From Pagrus major (lineage: Eukaryota; Chordata; Actinopteri; Spariformes; Sparidae): 64,000 nucleotides of DNA. Of the stretch, positions 11,499-58,568 are shown piece by piece; position 1 is the stretch's first letter, and every line of letters starts with the position of its first letter. A program made the translations under genes and the position numbers. The stretch is from NCBI RefSeq assembly GCF_040436345.1, contig NC_133237.1, forward strand, positions 27,385,861-27,449,860, written 5' to 3'. The notes beneath the pieces were generated by a model that made no database searches, had not been told where the DNA came from, and saw nothing but the letters and a program-made list of their open reading frames with translations.

Positions 11499-26695
<15,197 letters not shown>

Positions 26696-32795: not shown

Positions 32796-34000
32796 CATTT
32801 GTACTTTTTACTTAACTACATTTATTTAATTTAATTTTTTTGTTTCTGACACGAAACTTTGATAGAAAGTTGAGTCGCACACTTTTTTATTTTAGTGAAA
32901 AACTTTATTTCATTGAAGCGAAAGAATCAACTGGAGTTCAACATGTGAAACAACAACAACAACAACACAACCTCGACACAAACAACCGACTGACACCTCA
33001 GTGACACACACAGCTGCAGCGATCATCAGCAAACATCCTGATCAGTTATTAATCATCAAAACTCTGACGGCAGCGTCTGAAACGTTCACACTGACAGTTT
33101 GTCAATGCAGCTTTAATTTTTAGTTTTGGTTCAACGATTTCATTTTCAACATCGGCATCTTTAATCTTCCACACAACAGATCAATAATCCATCACCTTCA
33201 ACAATCCTGGATCATCTCTGCATTTTCTTTATATTGCAGCCAAACACTCAGAACAAGAACATTTTCAGGACCCAGTGTGAAGACTGAAGGAACCGATCGA
33301 CATCTTAATCATTACGTCTTAAAATCAATATATTCGATCAATTTAAAGGACAATTTCACAGCTGAATGTATCAACGCTTCACCGTCACTTTTCCTTTTCT
33401 TAATTTTAAAAGACACATTTTTAACCGCCGACAGAGTGAAGCATGAATTTAGACAATTAAAGATGAAAAGTAAAAATGGTACTGAAGATGTGAGAAGTAG
33501 AGCAGCAACGATTGATCGATCGGTCGGTTGGTTGATCGGTCGGTCGATTGATCGATCGGTTGGTTGTCAGCTACTGAAACAAAAAGTCATATTCTCTGAT
33601 GTCAGTTTGTTAAATGTGAATATTTTCTGGTTTCTTTTCTGAAAACGAAACACTGATCGACATTTTATAGATCGAACAGCTGATCGATCGATCCAGAAGG
33701 TAATCATTAGCTGGTCTTTTTTACACCTGTGATCATATTTTTAAGATTCTTGAGCGTTTTAATTCAATATTTGACTTTTTATTCAACATGTGTGCATTAA
33801 AATTGGTAAATGAATTTAGAAATGTTACATCACAGCTTCATGTTGTGTGTAAATACAGCAGGCCCGCCCAACGTTGGGCCCGCGGACCAGAGTCGGGCCG
33901 TCACAGGTTTGAGTCCAGAAAAACATAAAAATAAAGAATATGAATCGCTGTTTCTTCTGATTTATTTTCACGAGGTAAAACCGCTCTTTAAATACGTGAG
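32796..34000. other. Non-coding region downstream of dcp2
   Basis: Begins with a 'tactcaagta' repeat remnant. Includes a short (acaa)n run near 32947-32967 and an imperfect gatcggtcggtt-type simple repeat at about 33508-33570. A GGGCCCGCGGACC stretch near 33877 looks like a repeat remnant. No gene recognised. Confidence 0.4.
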
Positions 34001-34007
34001 ATCCCGA

Positions 34008-34013
34008 TTTATT
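34008..34013 (-). promoter_or_regulatory. dcp2: Candidate poly(A) signal for dcp2
   Basis: The minus strand reads AATAAA here, about 595 nt past the dcp2 stop. A second AATAAA lies at 33966-33961. Which is used, if either, cannot be told. No long genomic A-tract marking a retroposition junction is evident next to them. Confidence 0.35.
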
Positions 34014-34607
34014 AATTGTTTTTCCTAATCCTGAACAGGAAGTCAGTCAATTAAGGTAAGTACGGAAGCCCGGAGGGACAAAAAGGAAATTTAGATTACC
34101 CTGAGAAAACATCAGCTTTTGGAATGGATCCCTAGAATTAGTTTTTTGTCCTCTCGGGGCCTCCGTACTGTGCTCCGTGCAGCCATGTTGCATCTTATCA
34201 AAACATTTTAAGAGGTGCTTTGTTTTGGTCCAACGATAAGCTCCGGTTTTGGTCGTCTGAGGGGAAAAGTTTGGGCCGACGACCGATCGATCAATCGGGA
34301 AAATGATCAACAACGAACAGTGAAGCTTTCGTGATGCGTTCAATGATCATTGTAAATGTGCGTTCATAATAAACAAGGCAAGAAAAAAGGCAAAATTAAA
34401 GAATTAAAAGATTCAGGATGAGTTGGAACGATCGTGTTTGTATCACGTTTCTCATTTTCACTGAAAAATCTGTTAAAATCGTGACGAAGTGACTTTTTCT
34501 AACATCTGGAAACAAACTGACAAACAAACTGAAGCTTCTGATGTGGATGATGTCTGGATGATGTCTGGATGAGTCGTGCAGCTCCGGTCCGGACGGTATC
34601 AGGAGGC

Positions 34608-35699
34608 TCAGAAGTCGAAACACTTCATGATGGCGTCTCTGTCGAACTTGAAGTTGAGGAAAGTCTTGGAGGAGAAGTTCTGCAGGTCTCGGTCGAAGCT
34701 GTCCTGCAGCCGGCGCGGTTGGATCCTCTTGTCGTCCTTCTTCAGCTGCTGGCTGCCGGAGCCGTTGTTGTTCTTGACGTGAGGAGAGTCCTGACTTCTC
34801 CTCTCGTTCCCTCTCAGCTCGTACTGACCCACGGTCCGGCCCGGCTTCTGTTTGCTCCAGGCCTCTCCCGGGATCACCTCGGTCCCGGCGAGTCTGCGCG
34901 ACTTGGACCGGCTGTCTGCGGGTTTTCCCGGAGTGTTCGCGAAGTCCTCGTCGCTGTCCGTGGACTCTCCTCTCAGCCGGCTGATCCACTCCCTCAGAGG
35001 CCTGATGAACGGGATCGCCATGAAGAACCGGTTCGGGGCCAGACCCAGCTTGGACTTGGGGGTCATGTCGTTCCGGTGACACGGCAGCTTCTCGATAGGA
35101 AACCACTCGATGTTCCGGATCTCCTTCCGGGTTTTGGGGTTGAACTTGGTGTCCTTGGACACTCCCGGGATGATGTAGAGCCGGACCAGCTGGTCGGTGA
35201 TCTTCTGCTCGATGTACCGGTCTTTACTGATGCGGTTCTTGATATCGAAGCCGGTCTCCTCCATCACCTCCCGCACCGCGCAGTCGTGCGGAGCCTCGTC
35301 CTCGTTCACCTTCCCCTTCGGGAACCCCCAGCCGGACTTGGCCAGGTAGCCCTGAACCAGCAGCGCGTTCTCCAGAGACTCGTCCAGGATGATGGCTCCG
35401 TACGTGGGCACCCCCATCTTGTACTCCTTCCACTGCTCCAGCACCTTCTGCACGTCCTCCCCGTGCGGCAGCAGGAAGGGGCAGTGCTGGAAGACCGCCT
35501 TAGCGAAGTCCCGGATCCCGCAGTGCGGCGCTCCCGGGGTGTTCTGCATGCAGAAGTCCAGGTAGAACCAGTGGGCCAGCTCGATCTGGAAGCACACCCG
35601 GATCGCGTTGTCCCGCTCCTCGCTGGGGATGTGCAGGATGAAGCGGCTGCAGAGGTCGTCCAGGACCCCGGTGGGGATCTCCGGTCTCTTTGTGTCCAT
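34608..35699 (-). CDS. dcp2: mRNA-decapping enzyme 2, intact intronless copy, 363 aa
   Basis: DCP2 hydrolyses the m7GpppN cap of mRNAs committed to 5'-3' decay, working with DCP1 and EDC proteins in the cytoplasm and P-bodies. The N-terminal regulatory domain covers about 10-95. The Nudix fold covers about 96-240 with an intact box, G129-x5-E-x7-REVMEETGF, and catalytic Glu147/Glu148 at the human numbering. The C-terminal motif ([17 protein letters not shown]) is also kept. The whole protein lies in one uninterrupted frame, whereas the usual vertebrate gene has many introns, so this looks like a retrogene with purifying selection on its frame. It is about 57 residues shorter than human DCP2 (420 aa), mainly in the disordered tail. 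Start chosen at 35699 (MDTKRPEIP), matching orthologues; an in-frame ATG at 35714 would add MFSSN. The long frame on the other strand is a shadow. Confidence 0.9.
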
Positions 35700-35714
35700 G
35701 TTGGAGGAAAACAT

Positions 35715-35990
35715 CCCGACTTCCGTTCAGAACATCCGCAGGCGGGTCAACAAGGCCCCGCAGAGGAGAGCTGCTCCCGCGCGTGAGACTCAGCGGCTCC
35801 GCGACTTCAGTTCTGATCCAGAAACTTTCTCCTGCGACCAAAACAAACCGACAGGTCCGCTCTGCTTCCGGTAAACCCCGCTGCATGCTGGGAGGGCGCT
35901 CACATGACGTCACGACCCAACCGGGGCTGCGGCTGCGCTGTGGACGCTGGCGTCATCAAGCTGGACAGAAACAGGAAACACAAACCGGAA
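35715..35990 (-). promoter_or_regulatory. dcp2: Probable dcp2 promoter (GC-rich, with CRE)
   Basis: Contains a perfect CREB/ATF palindrome TGACGTCA at 35905-35912, an ETS-like cttccggt near 35865-35873 and gctgcatgctgggagg near 35879-35894, which resembles half of a ZNF143 site. An ordinary retrocopy would not bring such a promoter, so the copy either acquired one or sits at an existing CpG promoter. Its function is inferred. Confidence 0.45.
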
Positions 35991-36039
35991 TGTATATTTG
36001 GTCTTAAAATAAAAGCACAACTTGAAAATGTTGATGTTT

Positions 36040-36750
36040 TTTTCCCGTTTTTATTTTATTTTATTTTTCAATTTTATTTCACATTTTATCTTGTTTTTTT
36101 ATCTTGTTTCATTTTTTATTAAAAAATGTTTTATCTTATTTTATTTCATTATTTTGTTTTATTTTATTAGACTTATTCTATATGTCTTATTAGACATGTG
36201 AACAGGATTTATTTATTTTTTTTACAAACACAAGAAATTTAAAAAAATATATTTACAAAAACATCAAGTTAAATAAAGACATTAAATAAAATACTTCCAT
36301 TAACAGTTTTAAAAGCCTTTTTCTTGTGCAATATTTAACTGACAGTAAGTACAGTTCACACTTTTTATGAAAAACTGAGAATAGAGGAGTTTTTTGTTAA
36401 ATAATGACAATCATAAGAAGAAGAAGAAGAAGAAAAGAAGAAGAAGAATTAGGTTGATGATGTAAGCTTGTTTCTTCTTCTTCTTATTGTATTTTTTTTT
36501 TAAACAAACAAAACATATTTATATGGTAAAGTAAAATCATCTATAAATGTAACATGTAACTCGGTCACAGAAAAATAAACAGTGTTTGAAGTATTCAGTA
36601 AAGGTACTAATACCACACTGTAACAATACTCTGTTACTCTGCAAAGTCCCGAATTAAAAAATGTAACTTAATTAAAAGTATATCAGTACAATTAGAAAAA
36701 AATGTGCCCACGTATTAAAAGTAGACATACTCACTGCGGCAAAAGACGAT
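36040..36750. repeat. AT-rich low-complexity DNA and 'tactcaagta' family remnant between dcp2 and cdipt
   Basis: 36040-36180 is built of ttttattttattt runs. 36417-36448 is mostly (aag)n, with a short (ttc)n run at 36473-36484. 36565-36730 has aaggtactaataccacactg and ttaattaaaagtatatcag, phrases of the dispersed family. No gene seen. Confidence 0.5.
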
Positions 36751-37049: not shown

Positions 37050-39425
37050 ATGGCGCAGGACAACATTTTCCTCTTCGTTCCTAATTTAATCGGTGAGTTT
37101 TTACCGCCGCTGCTAACAGGGAGCTAGCTTAGCTTTAGCCTTCGTTCAGTGGATGCTGCTGAGAGAGTGTCACACCAAAGTCCATTCAAAAAAGTGACAA
37201 ATATAGCGATTAGACCAAACACATTTAACTTCTGTCTATCTACATATATGTTTTAAATCTGGTTCTTTTCCCTCTGATTTATGTTTCCATCGGTGTGAAA
37301 TATTGAGAACTTACAGCAGGTCAGGCTTCTGAAATCCTTCAAATACAATAAAATAACAGACAATTAATCTTTGGCAGCTCATCACCAAAAACTATGATAA
37401 GTGACAGAAGGAGACTTTAATTTCTGGGGGTCACAAATCAAAAGGTTTGGGAAAAACTGCTCTAATTAATCCCACAATTCTTCACCTGCTAACTGTTTCA
37501 GCTAACCATGAAAGTAAAGAATCAAAATCACACAATTAATCTACTTTGTTGTTTGTTGTCAAATCCAGTCCTGACTGTAATGTCATAAAAACGCACACGA
37601 CAGGATGCACGATGACATGTGAAGAGACAACAAAACCAAAGTGCAATAAAAAATATAAAGTCAAAAATAGATATATTTATCCCAACATCAGAGGGTTTGA
37701 ACAGAAAGTTCAATGTGAAAATGAAACTGTGTTCACTTACATCTTTATTACAGACAGCAGAGAGCTGACAGGAAGTGCAGCCTTAAACTGTCATGGCGGC
37801 TTAAAACTTCATCTCTATTCTCTCACTTCCTGTCTGTTTATTGAGGCCAGAGTCATCCTATACTACACACATCACCCAGGTGTGACTTGTCGTCTGTACC
37901 TGCAGGTTACGCCCGTGTTGTTCTGGCCTTCATCGCCTTCTACCTGATGCCCTGCTGCCCGTGGCCCGCCATCTTCTGCTACCTGCTCAGCGCTCTGCTC
38001 GACGCTTTCGACGGCCACGCTGCCCGGGCGCTTAACCAGTGTACGTATCTGGAGAGGCTTATCTAGTATATATTTGTATACATGTTAATATTCTGCTTCA
38101 TTTTCTCATGAAACCCAGCCTACAGTGTTGTGTATCTGTACAAGGAGAAAACTGTTAACTAAAGAAACATCTGGAAATATTCCAGCGGTTTGTAATAGTT
38201 TATGAATTAAGTCGAGTTTCTCACAGATAAAATTAATCTGACTTTCTGCATTTTTTTCTTTCAGCCACCAAGTTTGGCGCGATGATGGACATGCTGACAG
38301 ACCGCTGTGCCACCATGTGTCTGCTGGTCAACCTGTCCCTGCTCTACCCCTCCTACACCTTCCTGTTCCAGGTCAGCATGTGTCTGGACATCGCCAGCCA
38401 CTGGCTGCACCTGCACAGGTACATCATGTTCCCGCACTTCTCCAGATTTTCTGCCCTGTGATTGGATGATATTTATTTGAATAATCTAGGTTTAACTTTA
38501 ATGTTTCTCTAGAGTCTGTAACCACAACATCACCAGACTCCCTTTACAAATGTGGTGATTTTAAGAGTTGTTTCATGAGGAGAAACTCAACAAACTTTGT
38601 GAATCGGCTACGACAAATTCTGAATCATTGTCTCCTTCTTGTAAATTCAGTAAATGTTCTACATGAACTTTTTTCTGTCTTTGTGTAAAAACATGGAGTC
38701 TGTTTGTCCCAGTGAGGTTTGTCTGAATATAGAGCAGGAAGTGAGATCTGATCACAGGTGGTCGCTCAGGATGGATGTTAATACCAGGTCTGATGAGGGC
38801 CTTATATGTACACGTGTTGGCTCCGCGGACCAGAACCCGCTAGAATCATGAGAACCAGCTCTCATCATGTTTTTTCTTTCTCAGCTCAACAATTCAGGGA
38901 TCAGCCAGTCACAAGACTATCGACCTCTCCGGCAACCCCATCCTCCGTATCTACTACACATCCAAGGTGAAGAACACACACACACAAACACACACAAACA
39001 CACACACACACACACACTCATACATTGAGCCTCTGTTAATGAAAGCGTCAGTAGAGAAGCTGGCTGAATGTTTGTTCTCCTGCAGCCGGTGCTGTTTGTG
39101 ATGTGCGCTGGGAACGAGCTCTTCTTCTGTCTGCTCTACCTCTTCTATCACATCGAGGAGCCTGCAGGTGAGATGTTCCTCCTCTTCACGTGATGTCCAA
39201 ACGTCTCCGAGGCTTTAAAGTAAACCCGTCCACTGTGAGCAGCTGGTAGTAATGAGTTGTGGTTGTGTTGTGTGTGTTGCAGCGTGGCTCTACTGGCTGC
39301 AGGGTCTCTGCGGGATCATCTGCCTGCTCAAGTCCGGCATCAGCCTCCTGCACCTCATCACCGCCTCCCAGAACATGGCCGCCCTCGACGCCGCCGAGCG
39401 AGAGAAGAACACGAAGGCGCAGTGA
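37050..39425 (+). CDS. cdipt: CDP-diacylglycerol--inositol 3-phosphatidyltransferase (phosphatidylinositol synthase), 6 exons, 212 aa
   Basis: Catalyses CDP-diacylglycerol + myo-inositol to phosphatidylinositol + CMP in the ER membrane, the entry step for all phosphoinositides. Exons: 37050-37092, 37906-38040, 38265-38418, 38885-38966, 39086-39167, 39283-39425, all GT/AG and in phase, summing to 639 nt. The protein begins MAQDNIFLFVPNLIGYARVV, as in orthologues, and is one residue shorter than human (213). The CDP-alcohol phosphotransferase motif DG-x2-AR-x8-G-x3-D-x3-D is complete (DGHAAR, then FGAMMDMLTD), spanning the exon 2/3 junction. Hydrophobic segments flank it as expected for a multi-pass enzyme. 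The C-terminus is lysine-containing (EREKNTKAQ), consistent with ER retrieval. The start sits in aacATGGCG, a YY1-like context common in compact housekeeping promoters. The gene is head-to-head with dcp2, about 1.35 kb apart. Confidence 0.96.
38514..38660 (+). repeat. Interspersed repeat copy in cdipt intron 3 (partner at 47480-47622)
   Basis: The first about 74 bp (including caccagactccctttacaaa and gagttgtttcatgaggag) are about 95% identical to the reverse complement of maz intron 5 sequence; the following part matches more loosely. Confidence 0.7.
38972..39016 (+). repeat. (CA)n microsatellite, interrupted, in cdipt intron 4
   Basis: CA units broken by two caaa interruptions, starting a few bases after the donor at 38967 in a 119-nt intron. 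Confidence 0.9.
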
Positions 39426-46600: not shown

Positions 46601-48190
46601 AGCCGGTCTCTGTGTCCATCGCCCCGGCAACCGTAACCATGGCTGCACCGCCTCAACCCATCCAGGCAGCTGTTGTGGTCGTGGGCTCCATGGAAACGGT
46701 GGGTTCATCATAGACCATCATTAAAGGGGCAGTTCAGGGTTTTTTATTCATGTGCATGCATCATGTAGAGATCTCTTCTCTTACCTGATTGGACGAAGCT
46801 TCATGACTTCTGCTGCTCCACAGAATCAGAACCCCAACCCGAACCCCAACACCAACCAGGTGAGGAAGAACCACGCCTGCGAGGCCTGCGGCAAGGCCTT
46901 CAGAGACGTCTACCACCTGAACCGCCACCGTCTGTCCCACTCGGACGAGAAGCCGTACTCCTGCCCCATCTGCCAGCAGCGCTTCAAGAGGAAAGACAGG
47001 ATGAGCTACCACGTGCGCTCGCACCAGGGCGGCGTGGAGAAACCTTACATCTGTCCGCACTGCGCCAAGGCCTTCTCTCGGTACCGACCCACATCCGTGT
47101 CCTTCAAACTTTTATCTCTTCACGACATGACAGTTCTGTCTGCTGCTGTTTCTTTTCAGATGCGACCACACTGCTCATGTTGTCTTCTGGCGTGGAGATA
47201 TTTAGTCGTCTGTAATGACTCGTTTTGTTTTTGTGGATTTTTTTCAGACCGGACCACCTCAACAGCCACGTCCGACAGGTTCACTCCACAGAGAGGCCGT
47301 TCAAGTGCACGGTAACGTCTTCATGCGTCTGCTGACTGACATTAAATGTGTCTCCAGTGACCTCCTTCACATCAATGTGTTGTATTCTTCAGTAAATTTG
47401 GTCTAAATGGTGAAATCAGCGTCTTCAAACAGCTTCAAGACGCAAACTGACACTTTTAACAAGGAAACGAACAACTTCATGTTTTCATTTAATGCTGAAT
47501 TCACATGAAGCTCCAATGATTCAGAACTTGTTGTAGAAAGTTAGTTCAGTTTCTCCTCATGAAACAACTCTTAAAATCACCTCATTTGTAAAGGGAGTCT
47601 GGTGATGTCGAGGTTACTGGTTCAATAGTTAGTTTCAACAAACAGTGCTTTCACAGATGTTCACTGCTGACATCAGCATCTTCTTCTTCTTCTTCTTCTT
47701 CTTCTTCATCAGTTGAGTGAGTGGTCCTTCATGTGGTCCAGGACACGCTGCCTAAAGACTGGTCTGAGTGATCAGATCTCACGTGTCCTCAGTGCGTCTT
47801 GAGGACACGAGCGTCCCGACTGTTTTGTGATCGTGGTTGTTTGTAGTGTCTCCTGTAGAGTGGACTTCACACCCGCCTTGTTGTCTGTCAGTCTTTGTGT
47901 CTCACTGAATGTATTCATGTTTGTCTGGTTGTTTTCCACAGACGTGCACTTCAGCGTTCGCCACGCGGGATCGTCTCCGCGCCCACCTGATCCGTCACGA
48001 GGAGAAGGTGCCGTGTCACATCTGTGGGAAGCTGCTGTCTGCCGCTTACATCACCGACCACATGAGGGTCCACAACCAGTCGCAGCACCACGCCTGTCAC
48101 CTCTGCAACCGCAGTGAGTCGCAGCGACGTCACCACGCACCTCTGATAATCACACTGACACGTAGTCCTGCTGTGAACAAAACATACTCA

Positions 48191-48243
<53 letters not shown>

Positions 48244-48570
48244 CCAGGCTTCACCACGCTCACCTACCTGCGTGTCCACGCTCAGAAGCATCACGGTCAG
48301 GAGTGGAAGGAGAGCGGCGGGGCGCGAGGGGGCTTCGGCGGGACGGGGGCCGGCGGCGTGCTGCTCTGCCAGCTGTGCGGCGTGCAGTGCAAGACGGCCA
48401 CGCAGCTCCAGGGTCACATGGGCACCCACGCCAACCAGGACCCCACCCCCGACCAGACGAGCGCGGGCCCCGTGGGCACCACCAGCGTGGCCGTCACTGT
48501 GTCCAGTGCGAGCACAGTGGGACTGCTGGTAACTGACTGCTCCAGTATCGCCCCCCAGCCCCACAGCTAG
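43656..48570 (+). CDS. maz: MYC-associated zinc finger protein, 7 exons, 462 aa, eight C2H2 fingers
   Basis: MAZ binds G-rich promoter elements (GGGAGGG), acts as activator or repressor and has insulator activity alongside CTCF. Exons: 43656-43688, 45279-45429, 46310-46698, 46824-47080, 47248-47311, 47942-48113, 48248-48570; all junctions are in phase, summing to 1389 nt. The start MDTSWSNFLFQ matches the alternative first exon of MAZ/VEZF1 proteins. STVDTAAL (exon 2) and the finger linkers favour MAZ over VEZF1. Finger 1 (ICATCNKEF) is in exon 3. Finger 2 (RKNHACEACGKAF), finger 3 and the start of finger 4 are in exon 4. Finger 4 ends and finger 5 starts in exon 5. Exon 6 completes fingers 5-6 and starts 7. 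Exon 7 ends finger 7 and holds finger 8 (LLCQLCGVQC). Exon 7 corresponds to the C-terminus of a longer human MAZ isoform. Teleosts have two maz genes; which one this is I cannot tell. Confidence 0.93.
43689..45278 (+). other. maz intron 1
   Basis: A 1.6-kb intron with G-rich sequence near its start (43720-43810). It includes 'gttgcagctct' family-like sequence around 44150-44230 (aaagtgacgtcttcaaactg). No hidden exon was supported. Confidence 0.5.
47480..47622 (-). repeat. Interspersed repeat copy in maz intron 5 (inverted partner of 38514-38660)
   Basis: The reverse complement aligns closely with cdipt intron 3 over gtttctcctcatgaaacaac and aaagggagtctggtgatg. Only about four differences occur in the best 74 bp. 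Confidence 0.7.
47681..47709 (+). repeat. (CTT)n microsatellite in maz intron 5
   Basis: Uninterrupted ttc/ctt tract of about nine units. Confidence 0.95.
48194..48241 (+). repeat. (TG)24 tract abutting the acceptor of the last maz exon
   Basis: An uninterrupted TG tract is followed by only ttccag before exon 7 (start 48248). No conventional polypyrimidine tract lies between the repeat and the splice site. Confidence 0.97.

Positions 48571-52253: not shown

Positions 52254-58568
<6,315 letters not shown>

Follow-up and report, generated by a model that had tools for sequence, protein, structure and literature searches.

An intronless dcp2 between taok2 and cdipt in Pagrus major: probably an old retrogene that took the place of its multi-exon parent

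Introduction

Given that DCP2 normally is a multi-exon gene in other vertebrates, a dcp2 coding frame without introns on contig NC_133237.1 of Pagrus major raises the question of how this gene arose, and whether it stands beside a multi-exon parent or in its stead. The locus lies in a stretch of 64,000 nucleotides that was analysed as a whole and is referred to here as the window. We contend that the gene is quite probably an old functional retrogene, reverse-copied from the spliced dcp2 mRNA, that has replaced a lost multi-exon parent as the only dcp2. In this proposed course of events, a spliced dcp2 mRNA would have been reverse-transcribed and then inserted between taok2 and cdipt, the retrocopy would have gained or kept a GC-rich promoter and stayed intact, and the multi-exon parent would have been lost, leaving the retrocopy as the only dcp2 gene.

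The coding frame and its neighbours

The gene and the two genes that flank it are located as follows:

34608..35699, minus strand: dcp2 coding sequence, 363 aa and stop, uninterrupted (open reading frame, Pfam and tblastn)
35700..35714, minus strand: in-frame N-terminal extension (MFSSN) from an upstream ATG at 35714, 368 aa in total
11499..26695, plus strand: taok2, multi-exon (tblastn with the N-terminus of human TAOK2 over 11499-19640; gene end set by eye from the open reading frames)
37050..39407, plus strand: cdipt, multi-exon and divergent from dcp2 (tblastn, and a first exon, MAQDNIFLFVPNLIG, read from the sequence)

The dcp2 frame runs on the minus strand from an ATG at 35699 to a stop codon that ends at 34608, with no stop inside it. 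A single tblastn segment spans residues 1-420 of human DCP2 at 63%, with gaps confined to the tail, whereas the same script breaks the neighbouring cdipt and taok2 into several segments each. The coding frame thus lacks introns, as expected of a retrogene, and the complete, intronless dcp2 described in the initial annotation is upheld as far as the coding frame is concerned. Its placement between taok2 and cdipt is likewise correct; human CDIPT alone gave five tblastn segments at 37905-39407. The ATG at 35699 (CCAACATGG) coincides with the human DCP2 start in the alignment, and by the Kozak rules it lies in a better context than the ATG at 35714. A search of the minus strand between 35600 and 36600 for 5' splice donors gave none of strict form and two of loose form, and the 5' UTR may carry an intron.

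Other open frames and genes were seen in the window. An antisense frame of 405 aa (34569-35786, plus strand), with no Pfam match at E<=0.01, covers dcp2 and most likely just follows from GC-rich third codon positions. A 128-aa out-of-frame ORF (35500-35886, minus strand) has its ATG upstream of dcp2 and overlaps the dcp2 start; it would be an overlapping uORF if the dcp2 transcript starts upstream of 35886. Further along the plus strand are C2H2 zinc-finger frames at 46803-48532, presumably maz-like, and a second kinase at 55168-55802, weakly matched by the TAOK2 query, which we take to be nlk.

Identity and predicted function of the protein

The following parts of DCP2 were recognized in the encoded protein:

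35421..35666, minus strand: DCP2 box A (regulatory) domain, PF05026, E=7.1e-30, found at the same place in the genome-wide search
35070..35408, minus strand: NUDIX hydrolase domain, PF00293, E=8.2e-18
35247..35315, minus strand: Nudix box of 23 aa, the sole pattern match in all six reading frames of the window
34611..34676, minus strand: C-terminal 22 residues, at a position matching the EDC4-binding end of human DCP2

The box A and NUDIX matches both exceed the Pfam curated cut-offs, and the two domains follow one another in the order that characterizes DCP2. The Nudix box is intact and retains the catalytic glutamates, the equivalents of E143, E146 and E147 of S. pombe Dcp2 all being E. Alignment with S. 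pombe Dcp2 gives 109 identical residues out of 225 aligned. We checked 11 S. pombe positions with roles in cap binding and catalysis; eight are identical (W43, D47, K93, G128, E143, E146, E147 and E192), while R95, D131 and Y220 are replaced by G, N and F, the letters also present in human DCP2 (PDB sequence).

The best match among solved structures is the catalytic domain of human DCP2 (5qoh, E=5.9e-91), with 133 of 165 residues identical over the stretch and 124 of 145 over the first 145 residues, the ordered core. Against the human sequence, identity amounts to 82/94 for residues 1-94 and to 14/22 for the last 22 residues; the catalytic core is conserved, and most of the divergence falls in the disordered tail. 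EDC4 binding has been assigned to the C-terminal end of human DCP2 (PMC8984151). The regulatory domain, Nudix box and conserved C-terminal motif read initially from the letters were all recovered by Pfam, by pattern match and by this C-terminal identity, respectively.

Judged from its sequence, the protein should act as an ordinary DCP2, removing the m7G cap together with DCP1 and EDC4. Its box A and NUDIX domains would hydrolyse the cap inside the DCP1-EDC4 complex, committing mRNAs to 5'-3' decay, a predicted function that draws on knowledge of the family and on the conserved residues.

Search for another dcp2 in the genome

The lineage-specific duplicate and the sole copy were both offered at first, and a search of the same genome for a multi-exon dcp2 had been set beforehand as the test. 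The genome searched was the one assembly that contains the window (785.9 Mb, 25 contigs); parts of it may read N, and each search scored its best candidates. With the window protein as query, all ten candidates were scored and ten matches were obtained at E<=10, namely its own ORF (100%) and nine others at E of at least 0.19. Eight of the nine map to one part of the query; seven of these share one DNA sequence, at 188 or more of 192 bases, on one strand or the other, and the eighth, in another register, gives nearly the same protein, so that the eight represent one repeat. The ninth is a chance match (28% over 89 positions in a local comparison, E=6.13 genome-wide). Human DCP2 as query matched, at E<=10, its one candidate only, the same ORF (75% over residues 1-367), and the PF05026 profile likewise returned a single match, again this ORF (two candidates). 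A multi-exon dcp2 was hence not found in this assembly with either protein query at E<=10 or with PF05026, and within this assembly no parent was seen, as in orphan retrogenes and as would follow from loss of the source gene. A search of viral contigs also found no relative, in a collection that may lack records near the window's genome.

How far this negative result reaches was gauged with genes that are split by introns. The human REEP5 query hit three places, with four segments in each case (34 aa for the shortest, identities of 43-77%), and gave three further weak matches at E>0.04; the human SRP19 query hit a single place on C5, again in four segments, of which one is weak (E=0.06). As the protein search resolves these split genes, it should also have picked up a multi-exon dcp2. 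The SRP19 family profile, in contrast, found nothing in this genome at the default threshold, though the protein query finds SRP19; the profile form of search can therefore miss split genes, the PF05026 result for dcp2 is weaker accordingly, and the sole-copy claim is made from the protein queries.

These results favour the sole copy of the two options first offered and yield no second copy for a duplicate. It could be argued that the gene is a functional retrogene beside a multi-exon parent that is missing from the assembly or hidden in stretches that read N, which would make it a duplicate and not a replacement. An assembly of 25 contigs may lack unplaced sequence, and retrogenes with living parents are common, a zebrafish screen having reported 652 retrocopies, 440 of them intact (PMC3091775). 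Against the silence of two protein queries, in a search that does see split genes, we nevertheless regard such a duplicate as unlikely. A recent processed pseudogene or an artefact, intact by chance, is far harder to credit and hardly conceivable: transcription of the locus is something we infer, which leaves this explanation some room, but no other copy was found, and the differences from human DCP2 lie mainly in the disordered tail, the catalytic core being conserved.

If the retrogene did replace its parent, its retention as the only dcp2 copy would imply purifying selection. It also appears likely that the multi-exon dcp2 was lost outright in this lineage, in which case the mRNA of the sole intronless copy would lack both exon-junction complexes and control by splicing in its coding region.

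Route of origin and the ancestral site

Human TAOK2 and CDIPT lie at 16p11.2. Human DCP2 is located in 5q22.1q23.1 together with SRP19, REEP5, MCC and APC (PMC10379344), a setting that differs from the taok2-cdipt neighbourhood observed here. Retroposition is expected to yield just this combination of an intron-free coding frame and a different neighbourhood.

The scars of such an event were sought on both sides of the gene. On the minus strand, no A run of at least 7 is present in 33401-34607, and no target-site duplication was detected, the longest word shared by the flanks being 9 letters, while 188 of 200 shuffles give 8-10. The gene thus shows neither a poly(A) tract nor a target-site duplication. 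These are hallmarks of young retrocopies and are not required of old ones; their lack fits an old event and proves nothing. The retro-origin put forward at the outset is backed by the intron-free frame and the non-human neighbourhood and gains nothing from poly(A) or target-site signals. Third-position GC content (GC3) was considered as a sign of origin and rejected, given that the neighbours are GC3-rich too (dcp2 0.89, cdipt segments 0.85, the taok2 pieces used 0.73).

The missing scars would also suit an origin without any retroposed insertion, in which every intron disappeared from the gene where it stood, or the gene was relocated as DNA and shed its introns thereafter. However, the simultaneous loss of all introns would itself be best explained by a cDNA, and the different neighbourhood of the human gene at 5q22-23 (PMC10379344) makes loss in place less likely; we consider this route improbable. 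Reverse transcription of a spliced message therefore remains our preferred explanation.

Within this genome, the human 5q22 neighbours that were searched are scattered, as protein searches place three multi-exon genes of REEP5 type on C11, C12 and C16 and SRP19 on C5, and the single MCC-type domain (PF10506) lies on C11, more than 22 Mb from the REEP5-like gene of that contig. In 200 kb around the REEP5-like locus on C12 (5,000 bases of which are N), local tblastn revealed no dcp2 remnant (best E 2.5), and the ancestral dcp2 site was not recovered there. No srp19 or apc match was found in the same 200 kb either, for which reason the silence of this region on dcp2 says little. One frame in it is presumably syk-like. 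None of 13 loci of about 3 kb taken from matched places gave a dcp2 match at E<=10.

Flanking sequence and expression

Two flanking regions could serve transcription:

35700..35960, minus strand: presumed promoter and 5' UTR, GC-rich, with TGACGTCA and ETS-like cores
33961..34013, minus strand: candidate polyadenylation signals AATAAA (first bases 34013 and 33966), matches to the consensus

The CRE, TGACGTCA, occupies 35905-35912 and precedes the ATG at 35699 by about 206 bases. The initial annotation had read this element and other promoter motifs as suggesting expression. The element is indeed there, but the window has three copies of it against a shuffle mean of 1.29, and 14 of 100 shuffles reach three or more, so that it is no more than a hint; as proof of expression it was rejected as weak. 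When the 300-nt promoter itself was shuffled by mononucleotides, the motif arose in 84 of 20000 cases. A pattern scan of 35700-36100 found ETS-like cores at 35719 and 35865 and no match to a TATA, CCAAT or GC box. A bacterial promoter scan carries no meaning here and was set aside.

GC content, about 0.6 in 35001-36000, drops to 0.21 at 36001-36500. An AT-rich tract at 36001-36750 separates dcp2 from cdipt, with 21-27% GC in two overlapping 500-base windows, the first of which has a CpG observed/expected ratio of 0.18. On the 3' side of dcp2 is an imperfect inverted repeat (34069-34091 and 34136-34158; 23-nt arms with 74% complementarity and a spacing of 44 nt) that may be a small hairpin element. 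GATC-rich short repeats occur at 33509-33566 and 34280-34311 and include an inverted pair of 18 nt without mismatch, separated by 753 nt.

Significance and comparison with known systems

The unusual point is that the gene concerned is a core mRNA-decay enzyme. If our reading is true, a widely conserved RNA-decay enzyme is now encoded by a reverse-copied gene in place of a multi-exon one, with no surviving backup, and the species would provide a clean natural experiment on the importance of introns, splicing isoforms and exon-junction marking for the DCP2 message. Annotation by position or by exon structure may, in that case, wrongly report dcp2 as absent or pseudogenized. Our literature search found nothing on-topic on dcp2 as a retrogene, as an intronless fish gene or beside taok2 and cdipt, and nothing on zebrafish synteny of the 16p11.2 genes cdipt and taok2; dcp2 is not mentioned in the main texts of PMC8207432, PMC3091775 and PMC13320880. 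An intronless dcp2 may have been published earlier, and we make no claim of being first.

With vertebrate DCP2 (m7GpppN-mRNA hydrolase, NUDT20) the gene has in common box A, the NUDIX domain, the Nudix box and the C-terminal end. It differs in its coding frame, which is without introns, and in its product, which at 363 aa has a shorter disordered tail than human DCP2 (420 aa). The intact frame, the apparent sole copy and the non-human position are shared with orphan retrogenes, that is, retrocopies that replace a lost parent, whereas here the loss of the parent and the age of the copy are the probable parts of the comparison and no retroposition scars were found. Single-exon genes are known from teleosts, the European sea bass having 1,585 of them, 312 with multi-exon paralogues (PMC8207432), and the dcp2 described here is a gene of the same kind.
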